Assembly (NCBI RefSeq): GCF_022808855.1
Contig: NZ_JAKZLF010000021.1
Span: 1-64,000, forward strand
Origin: Anaeromyxobacter soli
GTDB lineage: Bacteria > Myxococcota > Myxococcia > Myxococcales > Anaeromyxobacteraceae
Direction: 5' to 3'
Length of the DNA stretch: 64,000 nt
The notes below the pieces were generated by a model, which saw nothing but the letters and a program-made list of their open reading frames with translations, ran no database searches and was not told the origin of the DNA. The first letter of the stretch is position 1. Each line of letters begins with the position of its first letter. Made by a program: the position numbers and the translations under genes. Below, in pieces: positions 46,299-58,667 of this stretch.

Positions 46299-47627
46299 TC
46301 ACGACGTCCCCAGCTCGCCGAGCAGCTTCTTCGCCTTCCGGAGATAGCCGCGCGGCCTCGACGCCTCGGGCATCGCCTCGCCGTCGCTCATGGCGCGCTC
46401 GAGCGTCGCGCGCGCGCCGGGGCGATCGCCGAGCTTCGCCTGCGCCTCCGCGCGGAGCACCAGCACCCGGATCCGGCGCGGTCCCTCCGCGAGCGCGAGC
46501 GCGCGGTCGGCGGCGCCGAGCGCGTCGGCCGGCCGCCCGAGGGCGAGGTAGAGGACACCGAGGTTCGTGGGGGGCACGTACTCGCCGGGCAGCTCGCGCT
46601 CGGACGCGAGGAGCGCCGGGAGCATGCGCTCCGGCTCGCCGATGCGCAGCGCCGCCTGGAGCCGCTGCCCGTCGAAGGCGGAGCGCGCGAGCGGGGTCGG
46701 CGCGCGGCGGGCCTCCCCGTCCAGGAACGCGAGCCAGCGGCGCGCGAGCGCCTTCGCCCCGGCCGCGTCCCCCGCCTCGGCCCGCGCCGAGGAGAGGACG
46801 TCGTACAGCCAGGAGCGGTCGTCCGCGAGGACCCCGCGCGCGTCCAGCGCACGCCGCGCGCCGGGCTCGAGCGCGGCGACCTCCGCCGCGCGCGCCTTGG
46901 CGTCCTCGAGCTCGAGCGCGCACGAGAGCCCCTGGGCGGCGACGCGCGCCGCGCTCGCGCCGCGGAGGCCGGGCAGGACCTCGCCCGCCGCGCGCGCGCA
47001 GCCGGCGGGGTCGCCCGCCATCGAGAGCGCCTGGACCGCGGCCTCGGAGGCGCGCTCCCGCGCCGGGAAGCTCTTGCCGCCCGCCGCGAGCGCCTCGTGG
47101 TAGGCCACCGCGGCCTCCGCGTGCCTCCGCGCGCCGAGGAGCCGGTCCGCGCGCGCGAGCGCCTCCTCCGCGCGCGACACCTCGCCGGCCCGGAGCTGGC
47201 GCTCACCGTCGAGCGCGATCCGCTCGATCTGCTCGGCCGTCGCGGTCCCGGCCCAGCGGACGATCACCCGCTCGTCCTCCGGGTTCACGACGAGGATGCT
47301 CGGCCACGCGTCGATCGGGAACTTGCCGACGAAGGCCGCGTTCCTGGGCTTCTCCGTGTCGATGTCGAGCCAGACGAACCGTCCGGCGAGCTTCTGGAGC
47401 CGCTTGTCCGGGAGGACGTAGGCCCGCATGAAGCGGCAGGTGGGTCACCAGGGGGCCCAGACGTCCACGACGAGCGGCACGCCGCGCGAGCGCGCCTCGG
47501 CGCGCGCGCGGTCGTAGTCGTCCGCGATGGACCGGCCCCGCGCGGTGCCGGGCGCCGCGACCGCGCGGACCGGCCCGACGAGGGCGAGCGCTGCGGCGAG
47601 GACGGCGACGGAGGCGGGGAGTCGCAT
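46299..47627 (-). CDS. Secreted thioredoxin-fold/TPR protein with in-frame TGA at the active-site position (candidate selenoprotein)
   Basis: Read through a TGA at 47445-47447, this is one frame of 442 residues. A signal peptide (MRLPASVAVLAAALALVGPVRAVA) precedes VPLVVDVWAPW, then TGA, PTC, RFMRAYVLPDKRLQKLAGRFVWLDIDTEKPR and the cis-Pro region AWPSILVVNPEDE: a thioredoxin fold in which W-C-P-T-C appears as W-(TGA)-P-T-C, with the TGA as codon 61 and Cys64 intact. From ~residue 150 the chain is TPR-like (ERASEAAVQALSMAGDP, VPPTNLGVLYLALGRPADALGAADRALAL). Coding character is seamless on both sides of the TGA, so selenocysteine is the simplest reading; a single-base error or nonsense mutation (TGC to TGA) is the alternative. 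It is probably periplasmic with a redox role. Confidence 0.7.
47399..47437 (-). promoter_or_regulatory. SECIS-like stem-loop after the in-frame TGA
   Basis: On the mRNA, GCCGCUU (nt 8-14 after the UGA) pairs perfectly with AAGCGGC (nt 40-46), and inside it CGG (19-21) pairs with CCG (34-36) under an apical loop beginning with a G (nt 22). The loop begins 21 nt after the UGA, within the 16-37 nt window described for bacterial SECIS elements. Confidence 0.45.
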
Positions 47628-57608: not shown

Positions 57609-58667
57609 TCAGCGCCCCGCGTCGGTGACGCCCGCGCCCTCGAACGTCGCCATCTCGTCGAGCACGCGGGCGGCGGCCTCGATGACGTGGAACGCGAGCG
57701 CCGCGCCAGTCCCCTCGCCGAGCCGCAGGTCGAGAGCGAGGAGCGGCTCCTTGCCGAGCGCGCGCAGCACGGCGCGGTGGCCCGCCTCCACGGAGCGGTG
57801 CGACGCGAGCACCGCGTCCGCGGCGCGCGGCGCGAGGCGCGCGGCGGCGAGGGCGGCGGCGCTCGCGATGAACCCGTCCGTCACCACGGGCACGCGGCGC
57901 GCGGCCGCGCCGAGGACCACCCCGGCGAGCCCGGCGATCTCGAACCCGCCCAGCGCGGCGAGCGTGCCGAGCGGGTCGGACGGATCGGGACGGTTCACCG
58001 CGAGCGCGCGATTCACGACGTCGACCTTGTGTGCGTGAGTGGCGTCGTCGATCCCGGTGCCACGCCCGGTGACCTCGGCCGCGGGGAGGCCCGTGAACGC
58101 AGCGGTGAGCGCGCTCGCCGGCGTGGTGTTGCCGATGCCCATCTCCCCGATCCCGAGCACGTGCACGCCCTCGTCGGCGAGCTCGCGAGCGACGCCGATC
58201 CCGGCCTCGACCGCCCTGGCCGCCTCCTCGCGGGTCATCGCCGGGCCGCGCGCCAGGTTGCGCGTGCCCGCCCCGATGCGCCGGTCGCGCACGCCCGCGA
58301 GCCCGGGGATGGGGAGCTTCACGCCCATGTCCACGACGATCACCCTGGCGCCGGCGTGCCGCGCGAGCACGTTGATCGCCGCGCCGCCGGCAGCGAAGTT
58401 GGCGACCATCTGCGCGGTCACCTCCTGGGGGTACGCCGAGACGCCCTCGGCGGCGACCCCGTGGTCGCCGGCCATCACCACCACCGCCTTCACGGCCGCG
58501 CGCGGCGTGGCGGTGCCCTGGATCGCGGCGAGCGCGCAGGCGATCTCCTCCAGGCGCCCGAGGCTTCCGCGCGGCTTGGTCTTGCCGTCGAGCCGGCGTT
58601 GCACGGCGGCGGCGGCGGCCGAGTCGGGCAGGGGGATCGCGGCGCAGGTGGTCTCGAGCGAGGTCAT
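57609..58667 (-). CDS. cobT: Nicotinate-nucleotide-dimethylbenzimidazole phosphoribosyltransferase
   Basis: The protein has 352 residues, standard size. It makes alpha-ribazole 5'-phosphate from DMB and nicotinate mononucleotide. Motifs are QRRLDGKTKPRGSLGRLE, VMAGDHGVAAEGVSAYPQEVTAQM, GIGEMGIGNTTPASA, DGFIASAAALAA and GEGTGAALA with the catalytic Glu. The ATG was chosen for GGAG 8 nt upstream and family start. It overlaps cobU by 4 bp. Confidence 0.97.
   Translation of the reverse strand: MTSLETTCAAIPLPDSAAAAAVQRRLDGKTKPRGSLGRLEEIACALAAIQGTATPRAAVKAVVVMAGDHGVAAEGVSAYPQEVTAQMVANFAAGGAAINVLARHAGARVIVVDMGVKLPIPGLAGVRDRRIGAGTRNLARGPAMTREEAARAVEAGIGVARELADEGVHVLGIGEMGIGNTTPASALTAAFTGLPAAEVTGRGTGIDDATHAHKVDVVNRALAVNRPDPSDPLGTLAALGGFEIAGLAGVVLGAAARRVPVVTDGFIASAAALAAARLAPRAADAVLASHRSVEAGHRAVLRALGKEPLLALDLRLGEGTGAALAFHVIEAAARVLDEMATFEGAGVTDAGR

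Follow-up and report, generated by a model that had tools for sequence, protein, structure and literature searches.

A candidate exported selenocysteine-containing thioredoxin-TPR protein in Anaeromyxobacter soli and other Myxococcota

Thioredoxin-fold selenoproteins in which selenocysteine (Sec) takes the place of the first active-site cysteine, resulting in a UxxC motif, are known, and GSU3446 of Geobacter sulfurreducens is one example (PMC13188914, PMC1914089). For Anaeromyxobacter dehalogenans, Table 3 of Zhang 2006 (PMC1794560) gives FdhA (three), SelD, peroxiredoxin (three), and thioredoxin (two) as selenoproteins, and a term search of that paper brought up no mention of a TPR domain. 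Here, we analyzed a gene of the Anaeromyxobacter soli genome (5.3 Mb, 80 contigs) that lies in a stretch of 64,000 nucleotides, all of which is referred to as the window, and in which a thioredoxin-fold protein with an in-frame TGA had been predicted. The whole is best explained, with a probability of roughly 0.9, by an exported Sec-dependent thiol-disulfide enzyme that has a Sec61/Cys64 active site and a TPR domain.

The in-frame UGA codon and its counterparts in relatives

The gene starts with an ATG at 47627 on the minus strand and runs from there to 46299 in the window, where it ends with a TGA at 46301–46299. With the in-frame TGA read as Sec, this is a complete gene (46299..47627, minus strand) for a putative exported thioredoxin-TPR selenoprotein of 442 residues with Sec at position 61. 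The original prediction had named this reading frame without its strand; the frame was borne out, and the strand is the minus strand. The plus strand at 46299–47627 is likewise open, but its translation is unlike a thioredoxin-TPR protein. When the frame was read again, the TGA was found at codon 61 (47445..47447, minus strand), exactly at the position of the first active-site cysteine, in W-U-P-T-C, and the predicted motif DVWAPW-U-PTC-RFMRAYVL was present as claimed, within the active-site stretch VPLVVDVWAPW-U-PTCRFMRAYVL and with 381 codons between the in-frame TGA and the terminal TGA. Full-length orthologues are found within the same genus (L011–L015).

In a scan of the whole window, in-frame TGA codons were sought for which the GC bias by codon position is strong and the 55 codons before and the 100 codons after are free of other stops. 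Three sites resulted, and only the TGA at codon 61 lies in a recognisable motif. A further in-frame TGA at window position 57611 on the minus strand is flanked by sequence with coding bias but lacks a Cys-type motif, and possibly separates two adjacent genes. The neighbours of the thioredoxin-TPR gene, which code for an RlmL-like methyltransferase, an Lhr-type helicase, and a DUF4442 protein, gave no functional hint, and the gene does not share an operon with redox genes.

A protein search across 145 genomes of the order detected the thioredoxin-TPR family in 127. The counterpart of codon 61 was compared in 50 genes; it was TGA in 26 and TGC or TGT in 24 of them, and no other codon occurred at this position, so that the homologues behaved as the original prediction had anticipated. 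Cys at position 64 was present in all 50 genes. On the level of the sequences, this exact exchange between Cys and TGA is a strong point for Sec. Within the same genus, TGA was found at codon 61 in all seven genomes with a match. SelB is encoded by 127/145 genomes of the order, including all 26 with the TGA, and eight listed genomes with the family in which SelB was not detected have no stop inside the match. As SelB is so common in this order, the association of TGA with SelB is by itself a weak argument.

In a tree for which the codon-61 site had been masked, six changes between Sec and Cys were obtained by parsimony, at least five of which are forced by well-supported branches; the tree was built by a quick method, and some of its branches are long. 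Within one genus (group g16), close relatives differ in this respect, as L041 has TGA, whereas L032 and L050 have TGC.

TGA is one base change away from TGC and TGT, and an error in sequencing or a nonsense mutation in a gene undergoing decay could in this way produce the in-frame codon, but the same TGA is present in 26 genomes that belong to several families and assemblies, including the single-contig genomes G013, G014, G015, G017, and G023. Downstream of the UGA, dN/dS was below 0.5 in six of six pairs (for example, dN 0.118 and dS 0.428), which speaks against gene decay, and by this measure purifying selection acts on the 381 codons that follow the UGA. Error or decay is refuted by these comparative data and has, in our view, practically no chance of being correct.

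Alternatively, the UGA could be a real stop that is followed by a separate TPR protein of 376 residues, whose start would be Met67, an ATG six codons downstream. An ORF finder gives exactly this 376-residue ORF with the ATG at 47429, but a protein starting there would lose the signal peptide and the active site, and its start would fall inside the first helix after the thioredoxin active site. Met67 is nearly invariant in the thioredoxin-TPR family; however, it is equally conserved in the Cys61 relatives, in which the protein is one uninterrupted chain. Moreover, the 26 genomes keep TGA at codon 61, and never have TAA or TAG. We thus regard termination with a separate TPR protein as very improbable, and the comparison makes it very likely that UGA codon 61 encodes Sec.

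Most of the named relatives with the Cys form belong to the Myxococcota (Myxococcus, Corallococcus, Archangium, Sorangium, Minicystis, and Polyangium), and a few records are titled otherwise; as the scan of named relatives used the W-C-x-x-C pattern, only Cys forms could be found. No thioredoxin-TPR copy was detected in the same-genus genome G016, which is near-complete and has SelB, an FdhA with UGA, and a SelD with UGA, and the gene therefore appears to be dispensable. The genomes G101, G110, G112, and G113 of group g33 have several family copies each, including a tandem pair in some of these genomes, and no stop was reported among the matches listed for these copies.

Selenocysteine decoding in the genome and the RNA downstream of the UGA

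A check of the genome for the Sec machinery had been proposed together with the original prediction, and all of its parts are present: a tRNA-Sec (75.4 bits; anticodon TCA, as determined with ARAGORN), SelA (444 bits), SelB, and a SelD that carries an in-frame TGA of its own. In-frame TGA codons also occur in three formate dehydrogenase alpha subunits (FdhA) and in two AhpC-TSA (peroxiredoxin-type) proteins, and two of the FdhA genes have a hairpin about 18 nt after the UGA, with the loop GGUCU or AGUCU. As the machinery, the UGA-containing FdhA, SelD, and AhpC-TSA genes, and the FdhA hairpins all point in the same direction, it is very probable that UGA is read as Sec at these other genes of the genome. 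The selenoproteome of the genus appears to be large, with three UGA-containing FdhA, a UGA-containing SelD, and two to three UGA-containing peroxiredoxin-type proteins in G013 and the genome of the window. The W-U-x-x-C pattern gave too many chance matches to be of use when whole genomes were searched with it, and no site of the A. soli genome was among the matches listed.

The 60 nt that follow the UGA (47385..47444, minus strand) are a candidate bSECIS region, with a GUCCU that begins 27 nt downstream of the UGA. When the folding of the 60 nt after the codon was compared with that of synonymous shuffles, the RNA of TGA genes proved more stable than the shuffles (mean z -1.62) and that of Cys genes hardly more stable (-0.27; Mann-Whitney p 8e-6, which is optimistic, as the sequences are related), and the z of the window gene was only -0.36. 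The published bSECIS rule demands a G in the first two loop positions, a distance of 16–37 nt from the UGA, and an MFE of at most -7.5 kcal/mol. With these constraints, no bSECIS was found in the window gene, and elsewhere the matches were scattered and included Cys genes, for which reason we do not claim a bSECIS for the window gene. It has a stable hairpin whose apical loop is located some 30 nt downstream of the UGA, and this loop deviates from the G rule. Relatives of group g4 fit the rule, such as L031 with the loop GUCCUG 27 nt after the UGA, and GUC at alignment columns 31–33 is invariant among the aligned TGA genes. The RNAalifold consensus of the TGA genes was weak, and its first hairpin was too near the UGA.

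Architecture of the protein and its proposed function

The thioredoxin fold and the TPR domain that had been predicted for this protein were both recovered. The N-terminus (about residues 1–25; 47553..47627, minus strand) reads by eye like an export signal. It is followed by a thioredoxin-fold domain (about residues 32–135; 47223..47534, minus strand), in which D55, W57, and P109 at the cis-Pro position are invariant, and by a TPR-type helical superhelix (about residues 149–441; 46305..47183, minus strand) that is indicated by TPR models and the predicted structure. The Pfam models Thioredoxin_7, Thioredoxin_2, and Thioredoxin match above their cut-offs at about residues 35–136, with the best score for Thioredoxin_7, and Pfam TPR models match below their cut-offs at about residues 355–413. 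The AlphaFold model, with a mean pLDDT of 93.1, contains a thioredoxin domain and then helix pairs. VIA-align placed the N-terminal part with thioredoxins (e.g., 1ep8; Z 15.0, 2.1 Å, 108 residues) and the C-terminal part with the LGN TPR domain (Z 17.5, 5.3 Å, 283 residues), and the nearest solved structures by sequence profile were the putative disulphide isomerase 2kuc, the thioredoxin 2lst, and the DsbD gamma domain 2fwe. As many relatives of group f6 (Myxococcaceae-like) have a lipobox-like L-x-C, for example in MRT..LLACTAS, the protein is likely exported.

D55, W57, W60, C64, P109, C210, and C236 vary little or not at all among 48 full-length family members. Cys64, the resolving cysteine of U-P-T-C (47436..47438), is Cys in 48/48 sequences, and the same invariance was found for the two residues of a second cysteine pair, Cys210 (46998..47000) and Cys236 (46920..46922), all on the minus strand. 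Apart from the active site, this pair provides the only cysteines of the window protein, and its two members should be near each other according to the helix limits of the model (207–220 and 223–238). U/C-x-x-C at the start of helix 1, a buried Asp (D55), and the cis-Pro position (P109) are in agreement with a thioredoxin-fold oxidoreductase. As far as comparison of sequences can establish it, Sec coding, the thioredoxin-TPR architecture, and the conservation of the four redox residues are firm.

In the mechanism that we propose, SelB would deliver Sec-tRNA to UGA codon 61, which an RNA structure would closely follow, and readthrough would result in the 442-residue protein. After export, Sec61 and Cys64 would form the thioredoxin-fold active site, the selenol of Sec61 would attack disulfides (or sulfenic acids) in client proteins of the cell envelope, and Cys64 would resolve the mixed selenide-sulfide. 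The active site would then probably be recharged by a DsbD/CcdA-type thiol reductase in the membrane; DsbD_TM membrane proteins are encoded in the genome. The TPR superhelix probably binds client proteins or a partner, and Cys210/Cys236 could either form a disulfide with a structural role or serve as a further redox site. As to the direction of the reaction, we lean towards a thiol-disulfide reductase or isomerase.

With the whole model, Foldseek ranked E. coli YbbN (3qou), which likewise consists of a thioredoxin domain and TPR, first and TPR proteins next. A selenoprotein that functions mainly as an oxidant, in a peroxidase-like manner, or as a holdase chaperedoxin of the E. coli CnoX/YbbN kind instead of as a disulfide reductase would be in line with this match, but the match is weak (TM 0.19 by query), and the invariant U/C-x-x-C and the export signal of our protein contrast with the cytoplasmic S-x-x-C protein YbbN; we consider such a function rather unlikely in comparison to that of a reductase or isomerase. 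Equally speculative is a combined picture, in which the protein would be an uncatalogued exported Sec "chaperedoxin" of mainly Myxococcota, with TPR holding the clients, C210/C236 swapping electrons with Sec61/Cys64, and frequent exchange of Sec and Cys between close relatives.

Comparison with known selenoproteins and thioredoxins

None of the entries in a 2026 inventory of 119 selenoprotein families is described as a thioredoxin with TPR. The view in the original prediction that this is not a recognised case holds in this respect, but an orthologue has probably already been counted as a Sec thioredoxin in Table 3 of Zhang 2006 (PMC1794560). The same-genus genome G013 has exactly three FdhA, one SelD, and three AhpC-TSA with UGA, and among its PF00085 matches the thioredoxin-TPR gene alone has an in-frame TGA. 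As this set matches the table, one of the two A. dehalogenans Sec "thioredoxins" is probably the thioredoxin-TPR orthologue.

The window protein scored far below the cut-offs of the NCBIfam selenoprotein models, of which TsoB (22.3 vs 805 bits) and trx7_PDZ (13.8 vs 300 bits) came closest. As no curated NCBIfam selenoprotein model covers the thioredoxin-TPR protein, the gene is likely mis-annotated, and automatic annotation probably yields a truncated TPR protein from it. With our analysis, the selenoproteins known from Anaeromyxobacter-like and other Myxococcota would come to include a thioredoxin-TPR protein that is exported and of full length, and close relatives that differ in Sec and Cys, such as L041 in comparison to L032 and L050, are natural pairs for asking what makes a bacterium retain selenium in an enzyme.

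E. coli YbbN/CnoX, the best Foldseek match (3qou, E 1e-5), shares the order of a thioredoxin domain followed by TPR. It is cytoplasmic, has an S-x-x-C site, carries the TPR model PF14561, and its TPR region is shorter than that of the window protein. PF14561 was not reported for the window protein at E up to 1, where HMMER filters may drop weak matches, and YbbN was not among the best 50 VIA-align rows, which is no argument against similarity. The DsbD gamma domain (2fwe; profile match E 3.8e-12) is also an exported thioredoxin-like domain, but it is linked to a membrane domain and lacks TPR, and with 29.4 bits the window protein stays well below the cut-off of 330 bits of the full DsbD model NF001419. 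The Trx7/PDZ selenoprotein (NF041199) is likewise a Thioredoxin_7 selenoprotein with a second domain; however, it has Sec at the second position (CxxU, PMC13188914) and a PDZ domain, whereas the window protein has UxxC and TPR. The Sec thioredoxins (PF00085, UxxC) have Sec in place of the first active-site cysteine, as proposed here, and the window protein passes PF00085 (29.5 bits vs a cut-off of 23.5 bits). They are listed as plain thioredoxins, whereas the window protein adds an export signal, the motif W-U-[PHK]-[TS]-C, and about 290 residues of TPR.
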